This document shows positions 16,302-63,733 of a stretch of 64,000 nucleotides of DNA, one piece after another. The stretch is from Pseudonocardiales bacterium (GTDB taxonomy: Bacteria; Actinomycetota; Actinomycetes; Mycobacteriales; Pseudonocardiaceae), in assembly GCA_023252195.1 (NCBI GenBank), contig JAHEXI010000016.1, forward strand, positions 1-64,000. Reading direction: 5' to 3'. The position numbers were made by a program, and so were the translations under genes. The notes under the pieces are model-generated. The model was given only the letters and a program-made list of their open reading frames with translations. It was not told where the DNA came from and did not search any database. Each line of letters begins with the position of its first letter. Within the stretch, counting starts at the first letter, position 1.

Positions 16302-16377
16302 GCTGTTCCCGCGTGAAGCGCCGTAGCAGCGCGCGGCGAATGGACAGCCGTGTACTAGCTATGTAGAGTTACGGGGT

Positions 16378-17507: not shown

Positions 17508-17527
17508 GCGTACGAGGCGAGGCACTT

Positions 17528-17570: not shown

Positions 17571-17634
17571 CAGCCCGGTGGCAGCGCGTGACACCGAGGC
17601 GCTGTCCTTGGCGTCCACCGGCTAGCGTAAGACG

Positions 17635-18431: not shown

Positions 18432-19355
18432 GGCCGCGGCTCGCGCCTGGGCCTGCGCGCGGCGCTGCTCGAAGCGGCTGGCCTGCGCGTCGAGTTGGCT
18501 GAGGAACTCGGCTAACTCGACGCGGGCTTTCTCGCCCTCCGCGTCGAGGCCCTCAAGGTCGAAGACCGCCCAGTGCCGGAGCAGCGGCAAGATCACCTCA
18601 TCGTGGTGGATCCGCAGGTCGTAGATGCCGGCCCGGGCGATCTGCGCGGCTTTGCGGGCAAACCCGGGGATGACGATGCCGGGCATGTTGAACGCGGCGA
18701 CCTCGTCGGTGATCGCACGCAGGGTGGGGCCGGGGGAGATGTCGAGGGCGGCCTTGAGCAGATTGCGGTAGAAGACCATGTGCAGGTTCTCGTCGGTGGA
18801 GACCCGGGTGAGCAGCCGTTCAGCGATGGGGTCGCCGGCATAGCGGCCAGTGTTGCGATGCGAAATTCGGGTGGCGAGTTCCTGGAAGGAGACGTAGGCC
18901 AGGACATGGAGCAGTGGCGCCTCCTGGGTGTCGTACCCGGTTTGCATGACCTGCATCCGGGCCCGCTCCAGCTCCACTGGATCGACGCCCCGGGTGACCA
19001 GCAGGTAGTCGCGGATGCAGTAGGCGTGCCGACCCTCCTCGGCAGTCCAACGGTGCACCCAGGTCCCCCAGGCGCCGTCGCGTCCGAAGGCGCGCTCGAT
19101 CTCCCGGTGATAGCTGGGCAGGTTGTCCTCGGTGAGGAGGTTGACTTCCAATGCGGTCCGGGCGATCGGTGACAACCCCGACTGCTCGGGGTCCCAAGCC
19201 TGCCCGCCGAGGTCGGCGTAGTCGCGGCCGAGACTCCACGGCACGTACTCGTGCGGCATCCACTCTTTGGCGGCGGCCAGGTGCCGGTGGAGATTCTCGG
19301 TGACCACCGGCTCTAGTTCATGCAGTAACCGGACGGTGTCCGAGGTCGTCGTCAT
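18423..19355 (-). CDS. Acyl-[acyl-carrier-protein] desaturase (diiron)
   Basis: 310 aa from the ATG at 19355, which has GAGGA 7 nt upstream. Ferritin-like diiron enzyme of the plant/mycobacterial acyl-ACP desaturase family (DesA-like). Iron ligands are visible in EDNLPSYHREIE, in the EEGRH motif (TAEEGRHAYCIRDYL) and in DENLHMVFYRN. It introduces a double bond into ACP-bound fatty acids, using ferredoxin electrons. It is convergent with the PlsC-type gene, so lipid genes face each other. The C-terminal tail is Gln/Ala/Arg-rich and coiled. Confidence 0.9.
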   Translation of the reverse strand: MTTTSDTVRLLHELEPVVTENLHRHLAAAKEWMPHEYVPWSLGRDYADLGGQAWDPEQSGLSPIARTALEVNLLTEDNLPSYHREIERAFGRDGAWGTWVHRWTAEEGRHAYCIRDYLLVTRGVDPVELERARMQVMQTGYDTQEAPLLHVLAYVSFQELATRISHRNTGRYAGDPIAERLLTRVSTDENLHMVFYRNLLKAALDISPGPTLRAITDEVAAFNMPGIVIPGFARKAAQIARAGIYDLRIHHDEVILPLLRHWAVFDLEGLDAEGEKARVELAEFLSQLDAQASRFEQRRAQAQARAAARS

Positions 19356-19638
19356 TAAGGTCCTCAGCAGCAGATCGGGACGGCCTAGAAGTACCACCGT
19401 AGCGTGTGGGCTCGCCCACCCCACCTGCCCGGCACGCCATGCATCGAGCAACGACAGTGGCGGTCGCAGCGGCGCTGCATTCTTGAGTAGCCACTACTGG
19501 TAGTGATATAAGTACGCACCGTATAGGTTACCGGTTTCCGTCGAATGGGCTCTTCACCAATACGTGACTGGTCCATAGCGTTGAGCGACCGTCGGGGAGC
19601 TCTGTGGGTCATGTAACTCAACCGAGAGGACCTGATCC

Positions 19639-50979: not shown

Positions 50980-51312
50980 TCAGTCGATCCGGTAGACATC
51001 GGGTTTGCGCTCGTCGAGGTGCCGCAGTACTCGACGAGCCTTGGCGATCTGGCCGCAACGTCCAGCTCGGCCGTCGCAATATCGGAGACCAGTAACAGAG
51101 GGCCTGGCGATCTTGTGCCATTCGCGGCGCATGGTTGGTGAGGCTGGTCGGCCACGCTGACAGGCAGGCCAGCACGTCGGCACCGTCGAGGGTGAGGCTG
51201 CGGGCCGATTCCGGGAAGGTCTTGTCGGCTGCCCAGCACCCCGTCGCCGTGCACACACAGCGCGGTGTTGTAGCGCCGATGTCCTTCGGCTTCGCAGACG
51301 ATCAGGACAAGC
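50980..51312 (-). pseudogene. Decayed nitrilase (carbon-nitrogen hydrolase) gene
   Basis: Three nitrilase segments occur in order on the minus strand but in different frames: CEAEGHRRYNTALCVHGDGV (upper), then DKTFPESARSLTLDGADVLA with CLSAWPTSLTNHAPRMAQDR, then IATAELDVAA / IAKARRVLRHLDERKPDVYR just before a stop at 50980. A functional nitrilase has these separated by ~40 and ~60 more residues, including the catalytic Lys and Cys motifs, which are deleted. The 5' end runs into the OsmC gene. The degraded copy lies next to the sll0787-type AIR-synthase gene, as intact nitrilases do in Nit1C clusters. Confidence 0.8.
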
Positions 51313-51700
51313 TCACGTCCACCGTCACCTCTGGGGTGCGGCGCAGGGTGTTGGTGACGTAGCACAGCCGCTCCGCCGCGGGCACCAGCCGGCGCAGGCC
51401 GTCGGTGTCCGGCGCGTCGGCCCGCACGGAAATCCGGATCGCGGAGAAGCTCGGGCCGTCGTAGTCGCCGCTCGCTCGCACCCGCAGCCCCGCCAGCTCG
51501 ATGCCCCGCTTGCTGGCTGAATAGGCCATTGCCAGCGTGAAGCAGGCTGCGATGGAGGCAAGCAGCAGCTCGGTGGGCTGCGGGCCTTGGTCGGTGCCAC
51601 CGACCGACTCCGGCTCATCAACGATCAGCTCGAAGCGCCCGGCAGATACCCGGCAGCGCAGCCCCCCGTCCCACGTCGCTTCCACCGAACGGGTGCTCAC
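51302..51700 (-). CDS. OsmC-family protein
   Basis: 132 aa from the GTG at 51700. OsmC/Ohr fold: VDEPESVGGTDQGPQPTELLLASIAACFTLA has the conserved Cys, and the second one is in AERLCYVTNTLRRTPEV. Such proteins reduce organic hydroperoxides with two Cys. The 3' end touches the nitrilase relic. Confidence 0.85.
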   Translation of the reverse strand: MSTRSVEATWDGGLRCRVSAGRFELIVDEPESVGGTDQGPQPTELLLASIAACFTLAMAYSASKRGIELAGLRVRASGDYDGPSFSAIRISVRADAPDTDGLRRLVPAAERLCYVTNTLRRTPEVTVDVSLS

Positions 51701-51815
51701 CGGCGTCCTCCTCAACCAGGAATCTGTGATGTTTCACCAGCGTGCAACGTGTGTGCAACGCTGCGGAGCACTGTGGCCGGGAACATTCATCCCAGCATGC
51801 CCAAGGAGGCCCCGG

Positions 51816-52166
51816 ATGACTGTTACCTGGTCCGGTACCGACGAGCGGGTCGCGGCACTGTCGTGCCGTGCCGGCTGCCGGGTGGACCCGGCGCTGCGCC
51901 GCCACCACGACCGGCTGCTCGCCGTCGAGTCCGACGTCGACGAGCTGCTCGAGCTCATCGAGCTGGCAGTGACGTGGGGCGAATTGAGCTACGGCGGAGT
52001 CAATGTCGTGCCGCCCGGGCAGTGGCTGGAGTTCGCCGCCCGCCACGAGTGGCGGGACCCGGATAGGGCGGCACGAATCTTCAGCGTGGCCACCGACATC
52101 GCGCTGCGGACCGGCCGGCGCGAGACGCCTTACCCGCTGACCGACGAGGTCGCAACCACCAGCTGA
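51816..52166 (+). CDS. Hypothetical protein, 116 aa
   Basis: From the ATG at 51816, with GGAGG 7 nt upstream. Cytosolic, acidic and rich in Leu/Val helices (LLAVESDVDELLELIELAV) with a C-terminal WRDPDRAARIFSVATDIAL. No recognisable domain, no signal peptide. It is convergent with the AIR-synthase-like gene and divergent from OsmC. Confidence 0.55.
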   Translation: MTVTWSGTDERVAALSCRAGCRVDPALRRHHDRLLAVESDVDELLELIELAVTWGELSYGGVNVVPPGQWLEFAARHEWRDPDRAARIFSVATDIALRTGRRETPYPLTDEVATTS

Positions 52167-52179
52167 GCGCGACAGCATG

Positions 52180-53178
52180 TCAGGAGCGCCCGAGTCGGGT
52201 GACGTCATCGACGGCCAAGTCGAGAACGGTGGCCGAGGCACCCTCGAACCGCAGCACAAGCTGCCCCGACTCATCGATTCGGCCCACTACGGCCGCGGAC
52301 AACCCGCGGTCCAGGAACGGTTGCGCGCAGTCCGCCTCCCGGCCGGCCGGGGCGCAGAGCAGGAACCCGAAGCTGGGGAAGCAGGTCAGCCAGGCCGCCA
52401 ACCCGACACCTGAGGGCACTGGCACCGCATCCACGTCGAGCGCGACGCCATGGCGACCCCACTCCAGAAGCATCGCCAGCGACCCGACCAGCCCGGCCAT
52501 GCTGATGTCCTTGGCCGCCACGCACGCTCCGGACTCGGCGAGCCTGGCGAAGAGCCGCACGTCCTCGGCGCACTGCGCCCCACGCTCCTCGATGGCGCCG
52601 AAGAACGGGAAGTCCGGGCGCATCCGGCCATCCAGCGCGGCGGCCACCAGCAGGCTCTGCCCGGCCCGCACCCGGGTCACCGATAGTGCCTGCCCGCTCG
52701 TCGTGCCGACGCCGAACGCCGAGACCGCGGGTTCCCCGTCGTGCAGCGTGAGGTGTCCGCCGAGGATCGGCACGTCGTAGAGCTCGCCTGCCCGCCGCAT
52801 TCCGAACAGCACCGAGCGAGCCACCTCCTCGGAGCCGACGATCGTGTCTACGATGCCCAGCGGTCGTGCACCCATCGCGGCCAGATCGTTGACGTTGGTG
52901 AGCACCGCGGCGAAGCCGGCGCCGTATGGGTCCGCGGCCACGAACGGCGGCCACAGCGCCTCACCGCAGGCCACCACCTGCCCGCCCAGCGCGGTCACCG
53001 CTGCGCCGTCGTCACCCGGGCCGGAGATCCAGTCACCCGGTCCCAGCACCTCGCTGACCAGCCCAATCGCCGCCTTGCCGCGCAGCCCGGGGTGGGCCCG
53101 CAGGGTCTGCACCAGCTCGGTCAGCGCGGCCGGTGCAGCCGATGCATCGATCCGTACCGCCGCCGTCGTGTCAGCCAT
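52180..53178 (-). CDS. sll0787-family AIR-synthase-like (PurM-fold) protein
   Basis: 332 aa PurM/HypE/SelD-superfamily protein: IGPGDD-type motif here WISGPGDDGAAV, then LTNVNDLAAMGARPLGIVDT and GGHLTLHDGEPAVSAFG. This subfamily (sll0787) is found next to nitrilase, radical SAM and acetyltransferase genes in Nit1C clusters; its reaction is unknown, but it should bind ATP or an aminoimidazole-like ligand. Here it is divergent from the seven-gene operon and faces the nitrilase relic's side, sharing a 69-bp promoter region with an inverted repeat. Confidence 0.85.
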   Translation of the reverse strand: MADTTAAVRIDASAAPAALTELVQTLRAHPGLRGKAAIGLVSEVLGPGDWISGPGDDGAAVTALGGQVVACGEALWPPFVAADPYGAGFAAVLTNVNDLAAMGARPLGIVDTIVGSEEVARSVLFGMRRAGELYDVPILGGHLTLHDGEPAVSAFGVGTTSGQALSVTRVRAGQSLLVAAALDGRMRPDFPFFGAIEERGAQCAEDVRLFARLAESGACVAAKDISMAGLVGSLAMLLEWGRHGVALDVDAVPVPSGVGLAAWLTCFPSFGFLLCAPAGREADCAQPFLDRGLSAAVVGRIDESGQLVLRFEGASATVLDLAVDDVTRLGRS

Positions 53179-53206: not shown

Positions 53207-53228
53207 ATAGTAGGTGCTTACCCACTAT
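53207..53228. promoter_or_regulatory. Candidate operator between divergent operons
   Basis: ATAGTAGGT-GCTT-ACCCACTAT is an inverted repeat with 8 of 9 pairs in the arms, centred in the 69 bp between the AIR-synthase-like gene (minus) and the phosphosulfolactate-synthase-like gene (plus). It overlaps where promoters for either direction would lie. The obvious candidate regulator is the XRE-cupin protein at 60804-61478, but that link is inferred. Confidence 0.45.
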
Positions 53229-53247: not shown

Positions 53248-54030
53248 GTGCGACCGCCGAGGTTCCTCGAGCTGCCGGCCCGTAGCGGCAAGCCCCGCGC
53301 CACCGGACTGACGCACGTGCTGGACACCGGGGTGCCGCCTACCACCGCGGCCGCCGTGCTGGCGACCGGCGCTGGGTACGTCGACGTGTGGAAGACCGGG
53401 TGGGGCACTGCCTACGTCGACCCGGGCCTACCGGAGAAGATGCGATTGCTGGCCGAGGCCGACGTCGCAGCCTGCCTCGGCGGCACCCTGCTCGAGATCG
53501 CCTGGGCGCAGCGGCGGGCCGAGGAGTGCCTGGCCTGGGCGGACGAGGTCGGCTTCCGCTACGTCGAGGTCTCCCGCGGGACGGTGCTGATGAGCCTGGC
53601 CGATAAGCACGACCTCGTCGGGCTGGCCTCCGACCGGTTCGTCGTGCTCGCCGAGGTCGGGTCCAAGGACCCGGGCGAGCAGCCGACGCCGGCGCAGTGG
53701 CGGGCCGAGGCGCAGGCTGACCTCGCCGCCGGCGCCCACCTGGTGGTCACTGAGGGGCGGGCGAGCGGCACCGTCGGCACCTTCGACGCCACCGGGCGAG
53801 TCCGCGAGGATGTAGTGGCCGCGGTGGTGGACGGCGTCGGGTTGGAGCACGTGATCTTCGAGGCTCCACGGCTGGAGCAGCAGGCGTGGTTTATCCGCCG
53901 GTTCGGACCCGAAGTCAACCTCGGCAATGTGGGGCTGGAGCAGCTGATGACGGTGGAGACGCTGCGGCTGGGACTGCGCTCTGACACTGTGCGTTGGGAC
54001 ACAGCCGTGGTCGGGACGCTGGTGCGGTGA
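53248..54030 (+). CDS. Phosphosulfolactate synthase-like (ComA family) enzyme
   Basis: 260 aa, GTG start. TIM-barrel of the ComA family, which adds sulfite to phosphoenolpyruvate in coenzyme M and spore sulfolactate synthesis. Motifs: GYVDVWKTGWGTAYVDP, CLGGTLLEIAWAQ, FRYVEVSRGTVLMSL (cf. EISDGT), VLAEVGSKDP (cf. EVGKKD), VVTEGRASGTVGTFD, and FGPEVNLGNVGLEQLM. The family match is good, but the actinobacterial context has no ComB/ComC, so the substrate may differ. First gene of a seven-gene operon; its stop overlaps the next ATG (TGATG). Confidence 0.82.
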   Translation: MRPPRFLELPARSGKPRATGLTHVLDTGVPPTTAAAVLATGAGYVDVWKTGWGTAYVDPGLPEKMRLLAEADVAACLGGTLLEIAWAQRRAEECLAWADEVGFRYVEVSRGTVLMSLADKHDLVGLASDRFVVLAEVGSKDPGEQPTPAQWRAEAQADLAAGAHLVVTEGRASGTVGTFDATGRVREDVVAAVVDGVGLEHVIFEAPRLEQQAWFIRRFGPEVNLGNVGLEQLMTVETLRLGLRSDTVRWDTAVVGTLVR

Positions 54031-54905
54031 TGGCGGTGAACCTCGTACCCGGTCGCTACCGGGGCGTCGCAGTGGCCACTGCATCTGGGCCGCTGGACGA
54101 CGGGGCGCTGCGCACACATTTTCTCGGCCGGGAGGCCTACCGCCGCACCCGGTTCCTCGTCGTGTGCGCCGGCGAGCGCACCGCGGTGCTGCGGGTCGCC
54201 AAGGCTTCGGAGACCGAGCTGTTCAGCCCAATCGTCGAGCTGGAAGTGCTGGCCGGACCGCAGGAGTGCGTATTCTTGCACCGGCCCGACGTGGACACCG
54301 CGATCCCCTCCGTGCTGGCCGCGACCGCGGTCGCCGACGCACCCGGTGCCCGGGCCGTGGTGGTACGCGGCCGGTACGAGCACGTCAACTTCATCCTCAA
54401 CCCCCGTCCGCGCCGGGTGCTGGTGCGTGAGGTCGTTCCACCAGAGCCGGCCAAGCTGTTCGACCAAGCTCAGCGGGTGCTCGCGGTCACTGAGGACCTG
54501 CCCCCGCTCGAGCTGGTGCCCGACGTGGTGGACCTCACGGAGGTGGCCAGCGCGCACCCCGCCGGCCATTACTTGTTGCCCTGCCGGGGCTCCGGCGTCA
54601 CCGTCGCCGGAGCCAAGGTGTCCTATCTGGACGAGCGTCCGCCGCTGGCGGACTGGACGCTGCTCGGCTGCGAGCGATCCCGGCAAATCCACCGCTGGTG
54701 CTACGGCTCCGAGCCATTCACTGTGGACTTCTGCCCGAAGCGGGACCCGGTGCCTGGCACGCTGACCAAGTGCTGCCTGCAGGAGGAGCACGTCGAGGCC
54801 GGTGAGGGTTGGGTGTCGGTGCCGTGGGGGTCGTCGCTTGAGCAGGTCCGGGAGGCACTGACCGGGCTCGCCCGTGCACTGGAGCCGGCGTGGGCACCCG
54901 GCTGA
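54030..54905 (+). CDS. Unrecognised protein, second gene of the operon
   Basis: 291 aa from the ATG at 54030 (overlapping the previous stop). Begins YRGVAVATASGPLDDGALRTHFLGREAYR. Alpha/beta with a beta-rich middle (VVVRGRYEHVNFILNP). It has several Cys near the C-terminus (CLQEEHVEAG, PKRDPVPGTLTKCC), possibly metal ligands. It has no ComB or HAD motif. It is probably a dedicated enzyme or a small-subunit-like factor for this operon. The next gene's GTG overlaps its end by 16 bp. Confidence 0.6.
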   Translation: MAVNLVPGRYRGVAVATASGPLDDGALRTHFLGREAYRRTRFLVVCAGERTAVLRVAKASETELFSPIVELEVLAGPQECVFLHRPDVDTAIPSVLAATAVADAPGARAVVVRGRYEHVNFILNPRPRRVLVREVVPPEPAKLFDQAQRVLAVTEDLPPLELVPDVVDLTEVASAHPAGHYLLPCRGSGVTVAGAKVSYLDERPPLADWTLLGCERSRQIHRWCYGSEPFTVDFCPKRDPVPGTLTKCCLQEEHVEAGEGWVSVPWGSSLEQVREALTGLARALEPAWAPG

Positions 54906-56245
54906 CCGACTCGGCCAGCTACGCCCACCTGTGGGGAACCGACGAGCTGGCCCGGGTGTTCGACGAACCAGCGCGCCTGCAATGCTGGCTGGACATTCTC
55001 GTCGCGCTAGCCAGGGTGCAGGCGCGCCTCGGGATCGTGCCGGCGGACGCCGCCGAGGCGATCGCCGCCGGCGCCCAGGTGGCGTCGCTCGATCTGGACT
55101 ACGTCGCCGAGCAGACCCGGCTCACCTCGCACTCCACCCTGGGCCTGATCCGTGGCCTGCGGCGGGTGCTGCCTGAACATGCCCGGGAGTACGTCTACGT
55201 CGGTGCCACTGTGCAGGATCTCACTGACACCTGGTTCGGGGTGGTGCTGCGCGAGGTCGGTGCCCTCGTCTGGCGCGAGCTGCGCGCTCTGGAGGCCGAC
55301 CTGCTTGACCTGGTCCGGACTCATCGGGACACCGTCCAGGTAGGACGGACTCATGGCCAGCCTGGCGCGCCGATCACCTTCGGGTTCAAGGCGGCGTCCT
55401 GGGCCGACGAGGTGCGACGGCACCTGCAGCGGCTGCGCGACGGGCGCTCCAGATGGTTGGTCGGGCAGCTGGGCGGCGCGGTTGGGGTGCTGGGGTTCTT
55501 CGAGGCGGACGGAACGTCGCTGCGACGGCAGTTCTGCGCCGAGGTCGGACTCGCTGACCCCGGCATCTCCTGGCTCACCTCACGCGACCGGCTCGCCGAG
55601 TTCGGCCACCTACTGGCCATGGTGTGCGGCACCCTGGCTCGGATCGGCGGCGAGGTCTACGAGCTGCAGCGCCCGGAGATCGATGAGCTGGCAGAGCCCA
55701 CCACGGCCACCGCGGTCGGCAGCATCACTATGCCGCACAAGCGGAATCCGGAGAGCAGCGAGCACCTGGACACCCTGGCCCGGCTGGCCCGGTCCTCGGC
55801 CGCAGTCCTGACCGAGGGCATGACCCAGCTGCATGAGCGCGATGGTCGCGGATGGAAGGCCGAGTGGGTGGCGCTGCCTGAGGTATGCCTGCTGACCGGC
55901 GCAGCACTGCGGACCGCGCGCACGATCGTTAGCGGGCTGGAGGTGCACGCTGGCGTGATGGCGGCGAATCTGGTCCGGCACGGGGACGCGGTGGCTTCTG
56001 AGCGGGTGCTGGCCGGGCTCTCGACGCGGCTGGGCAAGCACCAGGCGCAGGCGGCGCTGCAGGAAGTACTGACTGGGCGGCCGGCGGACCTCGCGGCAGC
56101 GCTGGCTGAGTGCGGGCTGGCTTCGGTCGAGGACGTCCGCGGCTGGATTGGCCGGCCGCCGGTGGCCACGGCAGGAGAGATGGTCGACGCGGTACTGGCT
56201 CGCGCCGCGACGGCCCGAGCCGGCGAGCCGGAGACCTGGCCATGA
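54890..56245 (+). CDS. Fumarase/aspartase-superfamily lyase (adenylosuccinate lyase-like)
   Basis: 451 aa, GTG start. Long helical lyase domain with the superfamily signature GSITMPHKRNPESSEHL (residues ~280) and HGQPGAPITFGFKAASW. It resembles adenylosuccinate lyase and 3-carboxymuconate cycloisomerase, enzymes that eliminate fumarate-like products by anti-elimination. Which C-N (or C-C) bond it breaks is unknown. It overlaps its upstream neighbour by 16 bp and its stop overlaps the next ATG. The second lyase at 57222 suggests two consecutive eliminations. Confidence 0.82.
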   Translation: MGTRLTDSASYAHLWGTDELARVFDEPARLQCWLDILVALARVQARLGIVPADAAEAIAAGAQVASLDLDYVAEQTRLTSHSTLGLIRGLRRVLPEHAREYVYVGATVQDLTDTWFGVVLREVGALVWRELRALEADLLDLVRTHRDTVQVGRTHGQPGAPITFGFKAASWADEVRRHLQRLRDGRSRWLVGQLGGAVGVLGFFEADGTSLRRQFCAEVGLADPGISWLTSRDRLAEFGHLLAMVCGTLARIGGEVYELQRPEIDELAEPTTATAVGSITMPHKRNPESSEHLDTLARLARSSAAVLTEGMTQLHERDGRGWKAEWVALPEVCLLTGAALRTARTIVSGLEVHAGVMAANLVRHGDAVASERVLAGLSTRLGKHQAQAALQEVLTGRPADLAAALAECGLASVEDVRGWIGRPPVATAGEMVDAVLARAATARAGEPETWP

Positions 56246-57225
56246 TCCCACCGCGGTTCCCACTCGCGGTGCTGCCTACGCCGCTGGTGCGAGCACACCA
56301 GCTGGAGGCGGTGCTGGGACGGGGCCGGGTGCTGCTCAAGCGCGACGACCTGGCCGGGTTCGCGGTCGGCGGCAACAAGACCCGGCCGCTGGAGTACTTG
56401 CTGGGACGGGCCCTGGCCGACCGGTGCGACGTGCTGGTCACCGGCGGCGGCCCCGGCTCGAACTTCTGCCCGGCGGCCGCCGTGGCCGCCCGTGCCGCAG
56501 GCTTGGACTGTGAGCTAGTCGTTTGCGGCGGTGACGACTGGGACGACGGGTACGGCTCGGCCAACTTGGCCATCGCGGCGGCTGCCGGCGCCTGCATTCG
56601 GCCAATCGGTGACCACGCGCGCGAAGCCCTGGATGCCGCGATCGAGGAGCGCGCCGCCGACCTGGCCGCGGCCGGCCGCCGGCCGTTCCCGGTGCCGCGC
56701 GGGGGGTCAACCCCGCTGGGCACGGTGGGGTTCGCGGTCGCCGCGGACGAGCTGACGGCTCAGCTCGAGCAGTCTGTACTGGCCGGCGGCGCCGAACCTG
56801 CGCTGGTGGTGCTGGCCGTCGGCTCCGGAAGCAGCTGCGCCGGGCTGCTGGCCGCCGGGCCGCCGTGGCCGGTGCTGGGAGTATCGGTCAGCCGGCCACT
56901 GCAGGAGATCACCAGCAAGGTGCATGCGCTGGCGCAGGCGTGCGCCCGGCTGCTGGGCTATCCGCCACCCCGCCCCAGGCGGCTGGAGATCGTCGACGCC
57001 CGTGGGCCCGGCTTCGGCGTCGCGTCGCAGGCCGACCGGGCCGCCGCCCGCCTCGCGCTGCACACCGAGGGCCTACTCCTCGACGACACCTACGGCGCCA
57101 AGGCGTTCGCGGTGCTGACCCGGCGTGCCGGCGGCGTGCGGGGACCCGTGGTGTTCTGGCACACCGGCGGTGTGGTGCCGGCCGTGGCGGCGCTGCGCCG
57201 CCGGGTATTGGGAGGACGGATGTGA
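56242..57225 (+). CDS. PLP-dependent D-cysteine desulfhydrase/ACC deaminase-family enzyme
   Basis: 327 aa from the ATG at 56242. Fold type II PLP enzyme with the Lys in FAVGGNKTRPLEYLL, then TGGGPGSNFCPAAAVAARAAG (phosphate-binding loop), VLAVGSGSSCAGLLAAGP and LLDDTYGAKAFAVLTRRA. This family includes D-cysteine desulfhydrase, ACC deaminase and L-cysteate sulfo-lyase (CuyA), the last giving pyruvate, ammonia and sulfite. With the phosphosulfolactate-synthase-like gene, a sulfonate amino acid substrate is possible but not proven. Overlaps both neighbours. Confidence 0.82.
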   Translation: MIPPRFPLAVLPTPLVRAHQLEAVLGRGRVLLKRDDLAGFAVGGNKTRPLEYLLGRALADRCDVLVTGGGPGSNFCPAAAVAARAAGLDCELVVCGGDDWDDGYGSANLAIAAAAGACIRPIGDHAREALDAAIEERAADLAAAGRRPFPVPRGGSTPLGTVGFAVAADELTAQLEQSVLAGGAEPALVVLAVGSGSSCAGLLAAGPPWPVLGVSVSRPLQEITSKVHALAQACARLLGYPPPRPRRLEIVDARGPGFGVASQADRAAARLALHTEGLLLDDTYGAKAFAVLTRRAGGVRGPVVFWHTGGVVPAVAALRRRVLGGRM

Positions 57226-58736
57226 CGCCAAGACGCGAAGAGGGTCCTCCGCAGACCGGGGCGGCGCGCGAGCTGGTGGAGTCCGGCTTCACGCTGGAGA
57301 ACGCGGACGCCTCATTCCTGCACCGCGGCCTGAACCTGGCCGACCTGGCGCACGTACTCGACCTGGCCCGGCGTGGCATTGTGCCGGTGCCTGCCCAGCG
57401 CGAGCTGCTGGTGCTGCTGCTCGAGGTGTACGAGGTCCCCGCCGACGAGTTCCCCTACGACCCTTCCTACGGCGAGCCGTACAACTCCCGCGAGCACTAC
57501 TTCGTTTCCCGGATCGGCGACGTCGCAGGGTGGCTGCATGCCGGGCGGCCGCGGCGGGAGGCGGCTCGGATCGCGCTGCGGCTGCACCTGCGCCGCCAGC
57601 TCGTCGAGCTGGTCGCTGAGGCAGCCGCCTTCGCCCGGGTGGCCGTCGACCGGGCTGACGAGCACGTCGAAACCGTGATGCCCGACCAGACTTACCTGCA
57701 GCAGGCCCAGCCCTCGACGTTCGGGCACTACCTGCTGTCCTTTGTGTACTCCACGCTGCGGGACGCCCGCCGGCTGCTCGAGGAGCTGGACTGGGTCGAT
57801 TGCAGCCCGGGCGGCGCTGGCTGTGTCAACGGCACCCGGTTGCTCTCTGACCGCAGCTTCATCGCCGACGCGCTGGGGTTCCGCGGCGTGATCGAGCACA
57901 CCCGCGACGCGATGTGGCAGATCGATGGACTGATCCACGTACTGGCCACCGCGGCCAGCCTGCTGTCCGGGTTCAGCAAATTGGCTGAGGACCTGGAGAT
58001 CTGGTCGAGCAGCGAGTTCGACTTCGTCGATCTGGCGGACGCCTACACTCGGGCCAGCGTGCTCATGCCGCAGAAACGTAACCCGTACTCGCTGGCCATC
58101 GTCCGGGGTGCCTCCGGGATCGTCATCGGGCGGTTGGCCGGGTTCCTCGCGGTGGCCAAGAGCCCATCCGCCCGCAGCGACAACCTGATTTTCGCCTATG
58201 GCGAGGTGCCGCGGGCGCTCGACTTGTGCCTGCGGATCACCCGGCTGATCACCGGGGTGGTGCGCACGATGCGGGTCAACGCCGAGCGGATGGCCGAGCA
58301 GCTGCGCACCGGCTACACCCAGTCGACCGACCTCGCCGAGCACCTGGTGCAGGCCTGCGGAGTGGACTACCGCACCGCTTACGTCGTCGTCGGGCGCACT
58401 GTGCGGGCGGCCAGTCGAGCCGGCATCCCCGGCATGGAGATCACCGGCGAGATGCTCGACGAGGCTGCCCGCGAGCACACCGGACGATCCTGGGCGCTGT
58501 CCGGTATGGACCTGTCCGAGGTGCTCGACCCGTGGCAGATAGTGCTCTCCCGGCATGCCCAGGGCGGTGCCGCGCCGACGGCGGTGCACCGCATGACGGG
58601 GAACTTGCGAGCGTCGCTGGATGAACTGGACGCCACTGTGGGCGAGCGGGCCACGGCCCACGACCGCGCCGAGCGTGCGCTGCTGGCGGCGGCCAGGGCA
58701 GTGATTGAGGACGCCCAGCAAGAGGGTGCATCGTGA
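57222..58736 (+). CDS. Argininosuccinate lyase-like superfamily lyase
   Basis: 504 aa from the GTG at 57222, which overlaps the upstream stop. Helical lyase with YLQQAQPSTFGHYLLSF, SPGGAGCVNGTRL, ASVLMPQKRNPYSLAIVRG and FIADALGFRGV, resembling argininosuccinate lyases, though with no arginine pathway gene near it. It is long for the family, with ~40 additional N-terminal residues. A second lyase in the same operon suggests that an N-substituted amino acid such as an N-succinyl or ureido compound is being dismantled. Confidence 0.85.
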   Translation: MTPRREEGPPQTGAARELVESGFTLENADASFLHRGLNLADLAHVLDLARRGIVPVPAQRELLVLLLEVYEVPADEFPYDPSYGEPYNSREHYFVSRIGDVAGWLHAGRPRREAARIALRLHLRRQLVELVAEAAAFARVAVDRADEHVETVMPDQTYLQQAQPSTFGHYLLSFVYSTLRDARRLLEELDWVDCSPGGAGCVNGTRLLSDRSFIADALGFRGVIEHTRDAMWQIDGLIHVLATAASLLSGFSKLAEDLEIWSSSEFDFVDLADAYTRASVLMPQKRNPYSLAIVRGASGIVIGRLAGFLAVAKSPSARSDNLIFAYGEVPRALDLCLRITRLITGVVRTMRVNAERMAEQLRTGYTQSTDLAEHLVQACGVDYRTAYVVVGRTVRAASRAGIPGMEITGEMLDEAAREHTGRSWALSGMDLSEVLDPWQIVLSRHAQGGAAPTAVHRMTGNLRASLDELDATVGERATAHDRAERALLAAARAVIEDAQQEGAS

Positions 58737-60136
58737 GCGTGTTGCCGGGGCAGGCCAAGGTGGTCAACATCGGTCTACCGATGTTCGCCGACGCCCTACG
58801 GGCGCAGGGTGTGGCGGTGGAGCATGTCGACTGGCGGATCCCTGCCGGTGGCGACCTCACCGCGGTGGCCACGCTGAGCCGGCTATACGGGGACCATGGG
58901 TCCGCTGTGGACGGAGCTAACGCCGAGGTTCTGCGACGACTGGACTCCGGTGTGCCGCAGCTCGTCGAGGTATCCACGGCGCAGCAGGCCGTGCCCGGAA
59001 TGGGGGGACGCACCTTGCTGCACTGCGGCCCGGCAATCGACTTCGGGCAGGTGTGCGACCCGCTGCGCCGCTCAATGCGCGCCGCCGTGGTCGCCGAGGG
59101 TTGGGCGACCGACGTCGAAGAGGCGCAGCGGTTGCTGGCCGGCGGCGACGTGGCGCTGGAGCCGGCCAACCACCACCAGGCGGTGGTACCGATGGCCAGC
59201 GCGATCGGTCCGACGGCGCCAGTCTTTGTGGTGGCCGATCGCGAGGGAGGCACGCGGTCCTACGCGCCGGTCAACCAGGGCCCAGGAGAGGTGGCCTGGT
59301 TTGGCCGGGACACCGACGCAGCGGTGGAGCGACTGCGGTTCCTGCGCGATGTCGCCGGGCCGGCGCTGACCCGCGTTCTGAGCTCGGCGGGCCCGCTGGA
59401 CATCCTCAACCTGGCCGCGCAGGGCGTCTCGATGGGCGACGACCTGCACATGCGCACCCAGGCAGCGACCAACCTGCTCGTCCGCACGTGGCTGCCCCAA
59501 CTCGCTGAGCTGCCGGACCAGCAGCGCGGCGGGATGGCCCGCTTCCTATCCGGCAATCACCTCTTCTTCCTCACGCTGGCGATGGCCGCGGCCAAGGCGC
59601 TCACTCTGTGGGCCGAGCAGGTGAGCGGGTCGAGCATCATCACGACCATGTCCCGCAACGGGACCACGTTCGGGATCAAGCTCGCGGGCTCGCCGGAGTG
59701 GCACATCACGGCTGCCCCGCCCATCACTGACGCGTTGTACTACTCCGGCTACGGGCCCGAGGACGCCGCCCCGGACATCGGCGACTCCGCCGTGCTGGAG
59801 CTGGTCGGGCTGGGTGGCCCGGCGGCCGCCGGCTCGCCGGCCGTGGCGGCGTTCCTCGGCGGCTCGATGGCCGACGCCAGGCGGGCCACCGAGGCGTTCC
59901 GGCAGATATGCGTCGGCACCAGCAGCCGATTCACGTTGCCTCCATTGGACTTCAGCGGCACGCCGGTCGGGGTGGACGTGCGGCGGGTGGTGGAGCTGGG
60001 GATCACCCCGCAGATCACCACCGGCATCCTGCATTCCTCCTCGGGCGTCGGACAGATCGGCGCCGGGGTGGCCACCGCGCCGCTGGAGTGTTTCACCGAA
60101 GCGCTGGCCGCCCTGGACGCTCGCCTGGTGCGGTGA
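58733..60136 (+). CDS. allG: DUF1116 protein (AllG-like, oxamate carbamoyltransferase subunit family)
   Basis: 467 aa, GTG start overlapping the previous stop. DUF1116 (YlbE/YahG) family, identified by NIGLPMFADALRAQGVAVEHVDWR, NHHQAVVPMASAIG, MGDDLHMRTQAATNLLVR, FLSGNHLFFLTLAMAAAK, SSIITTMSRNGTTFGIKLAG and MADARRATEAFRQ. In E. coli, AllF (formerly FdrA), AllG (YlbE) and AllH (YlbF) form an oxamate carbamoyltransferase that makes carbamoyl phosphate. AllH follows here, but AllF is not in the window. Confidence 0.88.
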   Translation: MSVLPGQAKVVNIGLPMFADALRAQGVAVEHVDWRIPAGGDLTAVATLSRLYGDHGSAVDGANAEVLRRLDSGVPQLVEVSTAQQAVPGMGGRTLLHCGPAIDFGQVCDPLRRSMRAAVVAEGWATDVEEAQRLLAGGDVALEPANHHQAVVPMASAIGPTAPVFVVADREGGTRSYAPVNQGPGEVAWFGRDTDAAVERLRFLRDVAGPALTRVLSSAGPLDILNLAAQGVSMGDDLHMRTQAATNLLVRTWLPQLAELPDQQRGGMARFLSGNHLFFLTLAMAAAKALTLWAEQVSGSSIITTMSRNGTTFGIKLAGSPEWHITAAPPITDALYYSGYGPEDAAPDIGDSAVLELVGLGGPAAAGSPAVAAFLGGSMADARRATEAFRQICVGTSSRFTLPPLDFSGTPVGVDVRRVVELGITPQITTGILHSSSGVGQIGAGVATAPLECFTEALAALDARLVR

Positions 60137-60888
60137 AGGCGCTCGACGTCGGCCTCGGGGCTCGGAGGGTGCTCGACGATCTCGCCGAGGGCCGGGTGGT
60201 CGCGGTCTACTCGCGGGCTGCCTACTTGCGGTTTCCGGCCGGACTGCTCGCGGTGACGTCCGCGTGGGTGCCGCCCGGCCCGCTGAGCCTGCGGTGCCCG
60301 GCGCTACCAGCGCTGCGGCCGGGTGCTGCGGTGTGGACGGACGGTTCCCGGCTTTCGGGGCCAGGATGGGCGGTGGCATTAGATGCACCGACCTGGGTGG
60401 GCGAGCTGCCCCCGCCCCCGACAGTTGCGCTGCCCTGCGCCGTCGCCGTGCCTGACCTGACTGGGCTGGCCGCGCGTCTGGGCGGGCGGGGGCCAGGGCT
60501 TACCCCGGCCGGGGACGACGTGCTAGCCGGCGCGCTGCTTGCGGCACGGGCCCGCTGCGGGCCGGCGGCGGAACCCGAGTTATCCGCGGTGGCTGCCTCC
60601 GTACGCACCACCGAACCGGCCCTGGCGTTCCTGGCCTGGGCGGCCCGCGGCCAATGCATCGAACCGGCGCACGCCGTGCTGCTGGCGCTGACCGCCCGCG
60701 ATGAGGCCCGGGCGCATGCTGCGGCGACCCGGCTCGTCGCGGTCGGGGCCTCATCCGGGGCGGCGCTACTTGCCGGGCTGAGTCTCGGGCTGGGCGATCG
60801 GGATCAGCGGCCACGCAGGGAAAACCGGACCACCTGGGTCGGCCGACGCCCCGGGTTGGACCAGCGGTGGCGGTGGTCGGTCGGGTAG
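60133..60888 (+). CDS. allH: DUF2877 protein (AllH-like)
   Basis: 251 aa, GTG start overlapping the previous stop. DUF2877 (YlbF/AllH) family with the key GLTPAGDDVLAGALLAARA motif (GLTPSGDD in most relatives) near residue 122, and an N-terminal half made of beta strands. Partner of AllG in the characterised E. coli enzyme. The last ~40 residues (RENRTTWVGRRPG onwards) overlap the XRE gene on the opposite strand by 85 bp, so the true end may be earlier in function. Last gene of the operon. Confidence 0.86.
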   Translation: MKALDVGLGARRVLDDLAEGRVVAVYSRAAYLRFPAGLLAVTSAWVPPGPLSLRCPALPALRPGAAVWTDGSRLSGPGWAVALDAPTWVGELPPPPTVALPCAVAVPDLTGLAARLGGRGPGLTPAGDDVLAGALLAARARCGPAAEPELSAVAASVRTTEPALAFLAWAARGQCIEPAHAVLLALTARDEARAHAAATRLVAVGASSGAALLAGLSLGLGDRDQRPRRENRTTWVGRRPGLDQRWRWSVG

Positions 60889-61478
60889 TGCAGAGCGTCG
60901 CCCCGGTGCAGTGTGTACTGCTCGCCGGCGACCTCAACGGCCAGCGTGCCGTCGAGCACAAGGAGCAGTTCCTCGCCCGGGCGCTGGGTGACCTCAGAGC
61001 CGGACTCGGCGCCCGGCGCCAGCGTTGCTACGTCCCCGGCGGCCCGGAAGCGCCCCGGTGGGCCCCCGATGTCGGCCAGCTCCACCCCCGGAGCCGGTGC
61101 AGTCAGCGCCGGTCGCCCAGTGGCCAAGGTGTGCGCGGCCACCTGCACGGGACCGGACGCGGCGTCGACGAAGTGCCCGATCGGACGGCCCAATGCGGCA
61201 GCCAGCTTCAGCAGCGTGGTGATCGTCGGAACCATGTCGTTGCGCTCGACCTTGTGGATCGCGGCGGCTGACACGTCGGCCCGGCTGGCTAGCTGCTGCA
61301 GCGAGAGCCCGAGCTGCTGGCGGAGTTCGTGAACCTTGGCGCCGATGGCGCCGACGATCGGCTCCCATTCCGGCACTGGGCCAACGCCCACTCGGCCGCC
61401 GCGGTCACCCGCCTGTCCGTTTCGCTCCGGCCTGGCATCCGCAGAACCCGCGCCACCTGTGGTCGTCGACCTGGCCAT
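60804..61478 (-). CDS. XRE-family regulator with C-terminal cupin
   Basis: 224 aa from the ATG at 61478 (AAGGAG 9 nt upstream). N-terminal XRE helix-turn-helix (LRQQLGLSLQQLASRADVSAAAIHKVERND, ~55-110) and C-terminal cupin (PGEELLLVLDGTLAVEVAG, LHRGDALHYPTDHRHRW, ~155-220). This XRE-cupin arrangement is common for regulators that sense a small-molecule ligand. It is convergent with the operon and divergent from the flavoprotein gene, so it probably controls one or both. Confidence 0.9.
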   Translation of the reverse strand: MARSTTTGGAGSADARPERNGQAGDRGGRVGVGPVPEWEPIVGAIGAKVHELRQQLGLSLQQLASRADVSAAAIHKVERNDMVPTITTLLKLAAALGRPIGHFVDAASGPVQVAAHTLATGRPALTAPAPGVELADIGGPPGRFRAAGDVATLAPGAESGSEVTQRPGEELLLVLDGTLAVEVAGEQYTLHRGDALHYPTDHRHRWSNPGRRPTQVVRFSLRGR

Positions 61479-61489
61479 GAGTGATCTCC

Positions 61490-61517
61490 TTGACAGTGAC
61501 ATTGCGTTCAGTATGAT
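61490..61517 (+). promoter_or_regulatory. Strong sigma-70-type promoter for the flavoprotein operon
   Basis: TTGACA (61490-61495) and TATGAT (61512-61517) with a 16-bp spacer, a near-consensus -35/-10 pair unusual in this GC-rich genome. The GTG start of the flavoprotein gene lies ~75 bp downstream. The region just after has a TATG...CACTTATGGTGTATAC stretch that could hold an operator for the adjacent XRE-cupin regulator. Confidence 0.6.
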
Positions 61518-61592: not shown

Positions 61593-62936
61593 GTGCCACG
61601 CAAGACGGTGATCATTGGTGGGGGGGCCGCCGGTCTGGGCGCCGCCGGTGGTGTGAAGGCGGCCGATCCGGGAGCCGACGTCGTCGTCTACACCGAATAC
61701 GAGGATGTCGCTTACAGCCCCTGCGGCATCCCCTATGTGCACGGCAAGGAGATCCCCGACTTCGAGCGGCTGTTCCTGGCCGGCAAGCAGACCTACATCG
61801 ACGCCGGCATCGATGTGCACTACTCCACCGCGGTCACCGCGCTGGACACTGCGCACAAGGTGGTCACGGTTGTTGGCGAGGGTCAGGTCTCCTACGACAC
61901 CCTGGTCGTGGCCACCGGCTTCAACTATGCCGATCCCGGGGTGCCGGGCGGCGACCTCGCGGGCCTGTACTACGTCAAGAATATTCGCCGGGCCATGGAG
62001 TGGGACAAGGTTCTCGACTCGGTGAAGAAGGCCGTCGTAGTCGACGCCTCGCCGCTCGGGGTGGAGATGGTCACCGCGCTCGCCCAGCGCGGCATCGAGA
62101 CTCACCTGGTTGACCCATACCCGTGGCCGCTGGCTGAGATGGTCGACCCGGACATCATGGCGCCGGTCGAGGAGTCGTGGGGCGAGCTAGGCGTCGTCGC
62201 GCACTACAACAGCACGTTGGAGGCTTTTCTCGGCGACCACAGCGGCCACGTCCGTGCGGTGCAGACCTCGGAAGGTGAGCTAGAAGCCGAGATCGTCGTG
62301 GTGTGCACCCACAAGGAGCCGAACAACACCCTTGCCGCGAAGGCCGGTCTGAAGCTCGGCTCGACCGGCGGCGTGATCGTCGACGCACGGATGTCCACCT
62401 CGGCGTCCGACATCTTCGCCGCCGGCGACTGCGTCGAGATTCCGCACGGGCTGACCCGGGTTCCGCTGCAGGGGCTGACCGGCAGCCACGCATACGCTCA
62501 GGGCAAGGTCGCTGGCGCCAACGCCGGCGGCGGTAACCGGGCTTACCGCGCGGTGTACGTGCCGTGGGGTACCCCGGCTGGCAAGTGGGTGATCGGGGGT
62601 GCTTCCTTCGGCGAGACCACTGCCACCGCATTGGGCATCCCGTACGTAGTGGGGACCGCTCAGGGCATTTCGCGGGCCCGGTACTACCCGGGTGTCAAGC
62701 CGGTCAAGGTCAAGCTGCTCGCCGAGCCGGGCAGCCTGCGGCTGATCGGCGCCCAGATGGTCGGCCAAGAGGGGATCAAAGAGCGAGCCGACTTCCTCGC
62801 GATGGCGGTCAAGTTCGGCTTCACCCTGGGCGACCTGGCGACGATGGAGAACGTCTACTCGCCCGCGATCGGGGCGCTCAACGAGCCCATCGTCCTGGCC
62901 GCACAGAACGCCCTCGACTCACTCAAGAGGCGCTGA
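61593..62936 (+). CDS. CoA-disulfide-reductase/NADH-oxidase-like flavoprotein
   Basis: 447 aa, GTG start. Pyridine nucleotide-disulfide oxidoreductase with FAD motif VIIGGGAAGLGAAGGVKA, the single active Cys in VAYSPCGIPYVHG (Cys ~44), and C-terminal FAD motif SASDIFAAGDCVEIPHG. This is the single-cysteine class that includes CoA disulfide reductase, NADH oxidase and polysulfide reductase. The second nucleotide motif is unusual, VVVDASPLGVEMVTALA, lacking the GxGxxG of NAD(P)H binding. The C-terminal dimerisation domain is present. It begins the short operon with the MSMEG_0572-like gene. Confidence 0.87.
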   Translation: MPRKTVIIGGGAAGLGAAGGVKAADPGADVVVYTEYEDVAYSPCGIPYVHGKEIPDFERLFLAGKQTYIDAGIDVHYSTAVTALDTAHKVVTVVGEGQVSYDTLVVATGFNYADPGVPGGDLAGLYYVKNIRRAMEWDKVLDSVKKAVVVDASPLGVEMVTALAQRGIETHLVDPYPWPLAEMVDPDIMAPVEESWGELGVVAHYNSTLEAFLGDHSGHVRAVQTSEGELEAEIVVVCTHKEPNNTLAAKAGLKLGSTGGVIVDARMSTSASDIFAAGDCVEIPHGLTRVPLQGLTGSHAYAQGKVAGANAGGGNRAYRAVYVPWGTPAGKWVIGGASFGETTATALGIPYVVGTAQGISRARYYPGVKPVKVKLLAEPGSLRLIGAQMVGQEGIKERADFLAMAVKFGFTLGDLATMENVYSPAIGALNEPIVLAAQNALDSLKRR

Positions 62937-62937: not shown

Positions 62938-63195
62938 ATGTCGTTCTTCCAGTGGCTACGCCGCAACTCTGAGCATTACCTGATGATCGCGGCGCACGAG
63001 CAAGTGGCGCATCAGTACGCCGCGCGGGCCCCGCGCCCGCCGCGCGGCCTCAAGGAGTTGTTCTGGCTGCGTCTGTTCGTCCCCATTTACCGGGCGCTGC
63101 CCTGGCTGGTGCGGCAGCGGATTATGCAGTCCATGCCGGGCAGCCATCGCCAACAATGGGCACCGCCTCCCCGGACGCAGAACCCGGCGGTGTGA
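62938..63195 (+). CDS. Small basic hypothetical protein
   Basis: 85 aa from the ATG at 62938, 1 bp after the previous stop. Aromatic/basic N-terminus ([21 protein letters not shown]), a hydrophobic middle ([18 protein letters not shown]) that could be membrane-associated, and a polar Pro-rich end. I do not recognise the family. Its fixed position between the flavoprotein and the MSMEG_0572-like gene suggests a small accessory subunit. Confidence 0.6.
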
Positions 63196-63247
63196 TCGCG
63201 AGATCCGCGCAAGAAAAACAACCTCGATAATGAAAGGAAGTTTCCCG

Positions 63248-63733
63248 GTGGCACAGATCGTGGGTGAAAGGGTTAGCAAGGGCGACGCGATCGTCGACTA
63301 CGAGGAAAAAGTATTCGAGGACATTCAGGCCGAGCCGGGCGAGAAGGCGTACATCCTCATGCACACGGTGCCATTCGAGGGCTCGGTGGGTCTGGTCAAT
63401 ATGCTGACGGCGACCCGGATCAACCGCAAGGGGTTCGACACGCATCTGGTGCTTTACGGCCCGGGATCACTGATGGCGGCGGCTACCCGCGGCTATCCGA
63501 AGGTCGGCGATGAGCCGTTCCCCGGTGCGCTGAGCTATAACAAGCAGCTGCAGACGTTCATGAACGAGGGCGGGCACGTCTACGCCTGCCGGTTCTCGGC
63601 CGCCGCGCTCTACGGCATGCGTGAGATCGACATGATGGAGGGCGTGAAGCCCATCAACCCGCTCGATGTCCTGGACTCAGTGCTGACGGCCCGACGGCAG
63701 AATGCGCTGATCATGCAGACCTGGACCGTCTGA
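63248..63733 (+). CDS. MSMEG_0572/Sll0783-type nitrogen-starvation response protein (DsrE-like fold)
   Basis: 161 aa from the GTG at 63248 (AAAGGAAG 7 nt upstream). Matches the MSMEG_0572-type family of the Nit1C neighbourhood: [74 protein letters not shown] and [20 protein letters not shown]. The fold is DsrE-like. Function is unknown, but the family is usually co-located with nitrilase and AIR-synthase-like genes; here those genes are ~10 kb away, and the nitrilase is decayed. Confidence 0.88.

Follow-up and report, generated by a model that had tools for sequence, protein, structure and literature searches.

The window, a stretch of 64,000 nucleotides from a Pseudonocardiales bacterium, contains a block of seven genes in which the five families of bacterial coenzyme M (CoM) biosynthesis are followed by two subunits of the AllFGH carbamoyltransferase. 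The block lies among genes of a nitrogen-acquisition locus, and the genome lacks EaCoMT (2-hydroxypropyl-CoM lyase). We consider it probable (about 0.6) that CoM biosynthesis is here dedicated to the use of nitrile or cyanide nitrogen. Genes 1–5 would produce CoM, or a compound very like it, starting from PEP, sulfite and a donor of sulfur. CoM would act as the thiol carrier for the other genes of the locus, which together make up a nitrogen-acquisition system: Nit1C-type proteins, a nitrile hydratase of the Co type, AllFGH and carbamate kinase, with the NitC nitrilase in two other genomes and an amidohydrolase in some. A nitrile or cyanide-derived group would be hydrated to a carbamoyl group, AllFGH would move this group onto phosphate, and carbamate kinase would yield ATP, ammonia and CO2. 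We infer the substrate, the direction of the pathway and the carrier role of CoM from the gene content.

All seven genes lie on the + strand with frames open throughout; with starts set at overlapping ATG/GTG codons, the successive overlaps are 1, 16, 4, 4, 4 and 4 bases. Gene 1, comA (xcbB; 53248..54030, +; PF02679, 258 bits), codes for a (2R)-phospho-3-sulfolactate synthase (PEP + sulfite); gene 2, xcbA (54030..54905, +), for a CoM-biosynthesis-associated protein of the DUF7714 family (PF24830; NF052538, 336 bits, cut-off 150); gene 3, xcbD (54890..56245, +; NF052536), for an aspartase/fumarase-superfamily enzyme of CoM biosynthesis; gene 4 (56242..57225, +; NF052537), for an XcbE-like PLP enzyme of a divergent subgroup; and gene 5, xcbC (57222..58736, +; NF052535), for a phosphate-eliminating relative of ArgH. 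Genes 6 and 7 are allG (DUF1116; 58733..60136, +; PF06545, 234 bits) and allH (DUF2877; 60133..60888, +; PF11392, 75 bits), both for AllFGH carbamoyltransferase subunits. A preliminary description of this DNA had proposed one dedicated operon in which each stop overlaps the next start by 1–16 bp. This holds, as do the families it named (ComA, two Lyase_1, PALP, AllG and AllH, all matched by Pfam models); the protein it left unrecognised is XcbA. A tRNA scan of the window found none.

The order comA-xcbA-xcbD-xcbE-xcbC-allG-allH on one strand recurs in 10 of the 49 loci found by the XcbA search (L013, L014, L020, L027, L028, L030, L032, L033, L034 and L051) and in L095, from a separate search. 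The remaining loci are broken by contig ends, have no detectable AllH or carry AllG elsewhere. As the seven-gene block recurs in other genomes, it is not due to chance. The preliminary description had advised a search for this order in relatives; the operon is conserved in relatives within Pseudonocardia and beyond. Its worry that the operon might be rare and unconserved was half justified: XcbA, found in 7 of 397 genomes of the order, is indeed rare, yet most carriers that lack EaCoMT keep the arrangement.

Profile searches (Pfam and NCBIfam) place all five families xcbA-E together at the block, and the proteins are 37–46% identical to the Xanthobacter autotrophicus Py2 set (pXAUT01), which adjoins EaCoMT. 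The comA product is 37% identical to ComA of the Py2 cluster and scores 218 bits with TIGR03849, under the archaeal cut-off of 280. XcbA is 43% identical to its pXAUT01 match, in an alignment of two pieces; its AlphaFold2 model has a mean pLDDT of 93.3, and a fold search against the PDB gave no match at E ≤ 0.001. Its invariant cysteines (C185, C214, C235, C248 and C249) hint at a bound metal. XcbA passes its NCBIfam cut-off; XcbC, XcbD and XcbE fall below theirs but have these models as best matches. For XcbD the score is 574 bits (cut-off 600), by far the best, with 46% identity to Py2; for XcbE, 222 bits (cut-off 450); and for XcbC, 422 bits (cut-off 575) versus 290 with the argH model. The low scores say little by themselves for XcbC and XcbE because L049, an alkene-type control locus beside a true EaCoMT, also misses both cut-offs (it passes that of XcbD); L053 passes all three. 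In a tree, XcbC falls in the clade of Py2 XcbC (support 100/100), apart from 13 housekeeping ArgH sequences, and 14 alignment columns separate XcbC from ArgH. One very long row (orph_G020), present in an earlier tree, was left out of this one.

Gene 5 as the housekeeping ArgH was rejected: the genome's own ArgH is on contig C41 and scores 582 bits, whereas gene 5 scores 290. The prospect raised in the preliminary description, that the genes belong to separate housekeeping pathways, falls away for gene 5 with this distinct ArgH. The expectation of a sulfonate is supported, but the enzymes had been taken for one catabolic or salvage route with eliminations. Since the five genes match the known bacterial set for CoM biosynthesis, the eliminations, like the PLP step, most likely serve synthesis rather than breakdown, and the idea that genes 1–5 degrade a sulfonated nitrogen compound was rejected. 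Judged by sequence, the product of genes 1–5 would be CoM.

The last biosynthetic step may differ, as XcbE is divergent and below its cut-off; a CoM analogue is therefore possible. That the block makes such an analogue or another sulfonate (e.g. of the cysteate or sulfolactate type) through a diverged XcbE step is nevertheless unlikely. The 222 bits of the XcbE model compare with 178 for the CuyA model, and in the tree the window XcbE lies apart from alkene-type XcbE, with seven of the eight Nit-type rows in a separate group, both of which speak for an analogue; the five families, XcbA included, travel together, which speaks for CoM. The trees also contain exceptions that argue against an analogue: the Nit-type XcbE of a Chloroflexota genome (G435) falls with the alkene type, and an alkene-type XcbC (G427) nests among Nit-type XcbC. 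The GGNK motif is retained in the window XcbE.

The gene order here is B-A-D-E-C, then AllG-AllH, whereas that of Py2 is A-B-C-D-E. The Py2 set adjoins EaCoMT, a disulfide oxidoreductase and two SDRs, none of which is beside the block here. The etn (vinyl chloride/ethene) clusters of Mycolicibacterium and Nocardioides have CoM genes in common with the block, and carry EaCoMT and alkene monooxygenase (PMC8727900). The 308-residue hypothetical protein "xcbF1" located between xcbB1 and xcbE1 of an etn cluster (PMC8727900) is probably XcbA, since the NBB4 and JS614 plasmids match XcbA. CoM made for an alkene or epoxide pathway encoded elsewhere in the genome would agree with the bacterial role as described (PMC11507031, PMC8727900) but is hardly credible here: the best match to EaCoMT is methionine-synthase-like (31–39% identity), EaCoMT could hide only in the ~2% that the assembly lacks, and a further 41 genomes are without it. 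Alkene or epoxide use was rejected on the absence of EaCoMT.

The whole-genome survey comprised 51 entries, from 44 of the 49 loci (L025, L040, L043, L048 and L050 were left out) and seven genomes from the search of the order, this one included. G100 and G439 have equal coordinates and are one genome, giving 50 distinct genomes, with duplicates recognised by coordinates only; G439 was also set aside in the Fisher comparison. EaCoMT (criterion E ≤ 1e-60) is absent from 42 of the 50 distinct XcbA-bearing genomes, this genome among them. AllF (E < 1e-80) is found in 40 of these 42 and in one of the eight EaCoMT-bearing genomes (Fisher p 3e-6, kinship ignored); NitD (over the model cut-off) is found in 37/42 and 1/8, respectively (p 6e-5, kinship likewise ignored). 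The earlier suggestion of a link to nitrogen acquisition is supported. G431 and G432, though within the 40, should not count as support because their AllF (over cut-off) is unlinked to xcb; beside xcb they have no Nit or AllFGH genes, and they have no NitD. In G433 only AIR-synthase and GNAT matches lie beside xcb. The linkage holds across Actinomycetota, Chloroflexota and Alphaproteobacteria. Loci L013–L061 were found with XcbA itself and so say nothing of genomes without XcbA.

Counts of AllG, nitrile hydratase, NitC and amidohydrolase refer to the DNA stretches fetched around the loci; as more were fetched around EaCoMT-lacking loci, the comparison of the two classes is fair only for whole-genome searches. 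Among the 42 EaCoMT-lacking genomes, these stretches contain nitrile hydratase alpha in 21, NitC in two and amidohydrolase in some. Eleven show no nitrile hydratase alpha, strong NitC or amidohydrolase match there, and six of these have a match to the nitrile hydratase accessory protein. In six loci of Pseudonocardia (L117, L118, L119, L178, L183 and L187), AllG(-AllH) and nitrile hydratase lie side by side in the same direction. The fetched flanks of the eight EaCoMT-bearing genomes gave no match to Nit1C, nitrile hydratase or AllFGH.

Divergent from the operon is a NitF-like AIR-synthase of the sll0787 family (52180..53178, −; TIGR04049, 254 bits, below the cut-off of 321). On the same side are the matched stretch of sm100 (51876..52109, +), a small conserved protein that has no Pfam family, and an OsmC-family protein (51302..51715, −), a conserved neighbour with matches below cut-offs. 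On the other side are an HTH + cupin regulator (60804..61502, −; PF01381, PF07883), a CoA-disulfide-reductase (CoADR)-like flavoprotein with a CGxPY motif (61593..62936, +; TIGR03385, 235 bits, below the cut-off of 579), sm84 (62938..63195, +), which is likewise small, conserved and of no Pfam family, and NitB (MSMEG_0572/Sll0783 nitrogen starvation response protein; 63230..63733, +; TIGR04044, 227 bits, cut-off 110). The PDB relatives of the flavoprotein are NADH oxidase and CoADR; BLASTP gave no match at 1e-5 between it and the Py2 disulfide oxidoreductase beside EaCoMT. NitD (TIGR04043) is, like NitB, over cut-off in the genome; for the NitC nitrilase (TIGR04048) the best E in this genome is only 5.8e-4. 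Nitrile hydratase beta begins at 63801 (+) and runs past position 64000, the window end, to contig position 64469. The alpha subunit, with a CTLCSC motif, follows at contig positions 64466–65062 and the accessory protein from 65059. TIGR03888 and TIGR01323 are over cut-off, and the two subunits with CTLCSC indicate the Co type. Thiocyanate hydrolase was rejected: alpha scores 197 bits against an SCNase cut-off of 291, but 302 against 250 for nitrile hydratase.

In this genome the locus is divided between two contigs, and a second contig (C1) has NitD, carbamate kinase, AllF and the MSMEG_0565 glycosyltransferase together. A transporter that by eye resembles the nucleoside type lies near the C1 locus. 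AllF is just under the cut-off of the FdrA model (414 versus 433 bits) and carbamate kinase just under that of arcC (343 versus 358), with 280 versus 266 for subfamily NF009007. AllG of the block is the sole match of its family in the genome. With AllG and AllH in the block and AllF and carbamate kinase on C1, all the parts are present for the carbamoyl-transfer step that had been proposed. The allFGHK genes of E. coli, for oxamic transcarbamylase and a carbamate kinase, are the same four; the genes here differ in having no AllD, in lying on two contigs and in being joined to CoM and nitrile hydratase genes. AllD, which makes oxalurate, the known AllFGH substrate, is over cut-off in none of the 42 EaCoMT-lacking genomes and has no match at E ≤ 1e-30 in this genome, which argues against oxalurate as the substrate here; oxalurate degradation was rejected for this reason. 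Ordinary oxalurate or allantoin degradation, with an unrelated CoM operon adjoining by chance, would fit the oxamic transcarbamylase activity of AllFGH in E. coli (PMC11326118) and the nitrifier allFGHK near nucleoside-type transporters (PMC12625717), of which the C1 neighbour is reminiscent. It is very improbable given a linkage kept across phyla and the absence of AllD, the allantoin-pathway gene searched besides allFGH and carbamate kinase.

NitB, NitD, NitE-like and NitF-like proteins and the MSMEG_0565 glycosyltransferase are common to the locus and the Nit1C cyanide-assimilation cluster (nitA-H). Unlike in Nit1C, nitrile hydratase here replaces NitC, and CoM synthesis, AllFGH, carbamate kinase, the CoADR-like protein and OsmC are added; none of eight canonical Nit1C control loci has a match to Xcb, AllF-H, nitrile hydratase, CoADR or OsmC. 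Amidohydrolase is found in five of the eight and so does not set the CoM type apart.

Within the reading of CoM as made for nitrile or cyanide use, a tentative scheme has CoM as the catalytic carrier of cyano and carbamoyl groups; as a whole it is possible rather than probable. Cyanide and oxidised CoM (disulfide or persulfide) would give 2-thiocyanatoethanesulfonate (CoM-S-CN), which nitrile hydratase (or NitC) would hydrate to S-carbamoyl-CoM (CoM-S-CO-NH2). Its phosphorolysis by AllFGH would yield carbamoyl phosphate and release CoM, and carbamate kinase would follow. The scheme would be the chemical reverse of cyanide synthesis by HypF/HypE. The locus might instead run the other way, AllFGH loading carbamoyl phosphate onto CoM and NitF dehydrating the product to CoM-S-CN as a cyanyl donor, as for the hydrogenase cyanide ligands. 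The HypEF chemistry (PMC12130793), the weak HypE match of the PurM/HypE-like NitF-like protein (TIGR02124, E 1.6e-4) and the LarBCE genes of the nickel pincer, which many Pseudonocardia have close to the locus (first named by eye, then one each of LarE, LarB and LarC checked by models), would suit this direction. We regard it as quite improbable, since the nitrile hydratase and carbamate kinase of the locus would counteract its product and Nit1C is associated with the use of cyanide rather than with making it.

A 2024 paper gives CoM genes as known only from methanogens and alkene users. Literature searches found nothing that connects CoM to Nit1C, to nitrile hydratase or to cyanide, judged mainly by titles, starts of abstracts and term counts, which a passing mention may escape; "coenzyme M" and "nit1C" occur together in none of the matches listed. 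Most of the 42 EaCoMT-lacking XcbA genomes carry the nitrogen-acquisition locus instead, and bacterial "CoM genes" are not safe evidence of growth on alkenes. If CoM is used there, it has a further role outside methane and alkene metabolism; the poorly understood Nit1C cyanide system would gain a thiol cofactor as well as a branch that conserves energy, and AllFGH a likely new substrate. If the CoM-S-CN scheme is true, the role of CoM would reach beyond hydrocarbon metabolism to an energy-conserving route for cyanide nitrogen. Strains of Pseudonocardia (for example P. spinosispora and P. oceani) and of Actinomycetospora that carry the locus offer test systems.

A palindromic operator-like site, ATAGTAGGTGCTTACCCACTAT (53207..53228, no strand assigned), is located 19 nt before comA. 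It is the sole match to its pattern in the window, with 0.03 expected in shuffles. A loosened pattern gives 21 sites across the loci versus 5–7 in shuffles, statistics that are descriptive because the window site served as the source of the pattern, which was then loosened after viewing the same loci; L052 and L120 in this survey are identical DNA. Similar palindromic sites precede comA in 15 relatives, and in single relatives the site is found before OsmC, AllG and AmidoH.

We read this locus as CoM biosynthesis dedicated to nitrile or cyanide nitrogen use (probability about 0.6). The preliminary description had reported seven overlapping genes (53248-60888) and had named the families of six of them; both points were borne out, the families by Pfam, with overlaps of 1, 16, 4, 4, 4 and 4 bases. 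Gene 2 is DUF7714 in Pfam and an XcbA-family protein in NCBIfam (336 bits, cut-off 150). The best NCBIfam models for genes 3, 4 and 5 are XcbD (574 bits), XcbE (222 bits) and XcbC (422 bits), which all stand for enzymes of CoM biosynthesis; all three scores are below cut-off. Two loci with a true epoxyalkane:CoM transferase (EaCoMT) served as controls. L053 is over the cut-off for XcbC, XcbD and XcbE, and the actinobacterial L049 for XcbD, with XcbC (439) and XcbE (322) below; judged by these controls, the cut-offs are tight. Identity to the Xanthobacter Py2 plasmid set is 37% for genes 1 and 5, 43% for gene 2, 46% for gene 3 and 38% for gene 4. The XcbC proteins of Nit-type loci (no EaCoMT, beside Nit/AllFGH genes), of alkene-type loci (with EaCoMT) and of Py2 fall together in a single clade (100/100) that excludes 13 housekeeping ArgH, and the alkene-type XcbC of G427 nests among the Nit-type proteins. 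Fourteen alignment columns tell XcbC and ArgH sequences apart, with no more than one exception on either side; the housekeeping ArgH of this genome lies on another contig, C41 (582 bits). The putative XcbE, divergent in sequence, is the weak point of the assignment: seven of eight Nit-type rows, including the one from the window, group separately in the XcbE tree. The GGNK motif, which presumably holds the PLP lysine, is kept in the protein of the window. This divergence counts against a role of CoM in nitrile or cyanide use, as does the fact that AllF, carbamate kinase, XcbC, XcbD and XcbE each fall under at least one curated cut-off. In Mycobacterium sp. SM1 (L046, 12246-14792), xcbE and xcbC share a single 849-aa open frame, a possible fusion.

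The AlphaFold2 model of XcbA (54030-54905) is confident (pLDDT 93.3) and gave no match to the PDB at E≤0.001. Cysteines 185, 214, 235, 248 and 249 are invariant. The modelled fold is possibly new, and perhaps metal-binding. The XcbA model also gives a below-cut-off match in Methanosarcina acetivorans, whose route to CoM is a different one.

At its 3' end the window enters the nitrile hydratase (NHase) β gene, followed by α (CTLCSC, Co type) and an accessory protein. These are preceded by NitB (TIGR04044, 227 bits), which we take to be DsrE-like, and by a CoA-disulfide-reductase-like flavoprotein. BLASTP at 1e-5 did not match this flavoprotein to the disulfide oxidoreductase that adjoins EaCoMT in Py2. 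Divergent genes upstream of the operon encode an OsmC protein and a NitF-like AIR-synthase (52180-53178); the latter has a further match, to methanogenesis marker protein 2 (TIGR03267, 168 bits, cut-off 365). Contig C1 of this genome carries NitD, carbamate kinase, AllF, an MSMEG_0565 glycosyltransferase and a GNAT match. By eye, a nucleoside-type ABC transporter lies near this half of the locus (L108, 1322-4859), and recombinase- and transposase-like genes lie past the glycosyltransferase (14968-19381); the latter may account for the split. In a sister MAG (L013/L109, XcbA 95% identical) the C1-type genes come after NHase on a single contig, and G020 holds an almost complete set within one 20-kb stretch (L095). 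Three small conserved families, sm84 (62938-63195), sm100 (51876-52109) and fam31 (L109, 9712-10338), have no Pfam match. In many Pseudonocardia, nickel-pincer cofactor genes adjoin the CoM locus, with larE (L029, 6056-6922), larB (L022, 2029-2712) and larC (L034, 1533-2756) over cut-off.

XcbA is rare in the order (7/397 genomes; NitB, 65/397); four of the seven carry NitB, each with a copy on the XcbA contig within ~10 kb. A contig scan gave 49 XcbA loci, from Actinomycetota, Chloroflexota, Dormibacterota, Pseudomonadota and one deltaproteobacterial MAG. Whole-genome searches covered 51 handles, or 50 distinct genomes, of which 8 have EaCoMT and 42 have none at E≤1e-60. AllF (E<1e-80) is present in 40/42 genomes without EaCoMT versus 1/8 with it (p 3e-6), and NitD over cut-off in 37/42 versus 1/8 (p 6e-5), p-values that overstate independence as the genomes are related. 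The 40 include G431 and G432, in which AllF is away from the xcb genes and NitD is absent; against the nitrile/cyanide reading, the CoM genes of these two genomes have no Nit or AllFGH neighbours, and those of G433 adjoin AIR-synthase and GNAT only. In the fetched stretches of the 42, AllG occurs in 39 (G431's copy away from xcb), NHase α in 21, strong NitC in 2 and amidohydrolase in 9. At least one of the last three is present in 31, with NHase and amidohydrolase together in one genome. None of the three is visible in 11/42, which also argues against the reading; an accessory protein of NHase was matched in 6 of these 11. NitC (TIGR04048) exceeds its cut-off in 4/45 genomes and was absent from the window's genome in a genome search; it shares a contig with xcb genes in Nitrobacter sp. 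62-23 and Sphingobium chungbukense. AllG is followed by NHase on the same strand in six Pseudonocardia loci (L117, L118, L119, L178, L183, L187), two of which (L117 and L187) also gave an AllH match.

As a control we took eight 20-kb stretches that surround canonical NitB genes in this order. They contain NitB, NitD-type, GNAT, AIR-synthase and glycosyltransferase matches; Xcb, AllF-H, NHase, the CoA-disulfide reductase and OsmC were matched in 0/8. Unlike the window-type locus, canonical Nit1C has no adjoining CoM genes, a further point against the reading. Amidohydrolase occurs in 5/8 and so does not mark out the CoM type. Two NitD genes (470–500 and about 376–387 bits) in G410, G413, G414, G415, G418 and G428 suggest that canonical Nit1C coexists there with a CoM-type locus. 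The individual parts are of known kinds, but their combination appears undescribed: a CoM biosynthesis operon that runs on into carbamoyltransferase genes, within a locus for nitrile/cyanide nitrogen; the literature searched yielded no link of CoM to Nit1C, NHase or cyanide assimilation, which is not proof of absence.

In E. coli, AllFGH interconverts oxalurate plus phosphate and oxamate plus carbamoyl phosphate, with the carbamate kinase AllK acting next (PMC11326118, in the part available). Because AllD, the enzyme that produces oxalurate, exceeds its cut-off in 0/42 EaCoMT-lacking genomes, AllFGH here probably uses another carbamoyl donor. If NHase made that donor, phosphorolysis would, on chemical grounds, need the carbamoyl on nitrogen or sulfur. 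As the locus would supply a thiol of its own, CoM, to act as the carrier, the simplest scheme would be CoM-S-CN to CoM-S-CO-NH2 to carbamoyl phosphate and CoM; we regard this chemistry as unlikely in itself. HypF/HypE perform the reverse on a protein thiol (PMC12130793, in the part available). The CoA-disulfide-reductase-like protein, NitB and OsmC would deal with CoM disulfide or persulfide.

A palindromic operator-like site, ATAGTAGGTGCTTACCCACTAT (53207-53228), lies 19 nt 5' of the first start codon. A pattern derived from this site has no second match in the window with up to 3 mismatches (0.03 expected from shuffles). A pattern loosened after the data had been seen (≤2 mismatches of 12) gave 21 sites in 1.45 Mb of fetched loci versus 5–7 in shuffles; a putative regulatory element shared by comA, OsmC, AllG and amidohydrolase genes is for that reason suggestive only. 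Fifteen of the 21 end 8–20 nt 5' of the inferred comA start, and single sites precede OsmC in L028, AllG in L115 (P. dioxanivorans, whose AllG lies a long way from comA) and amidohydrolase in L116.
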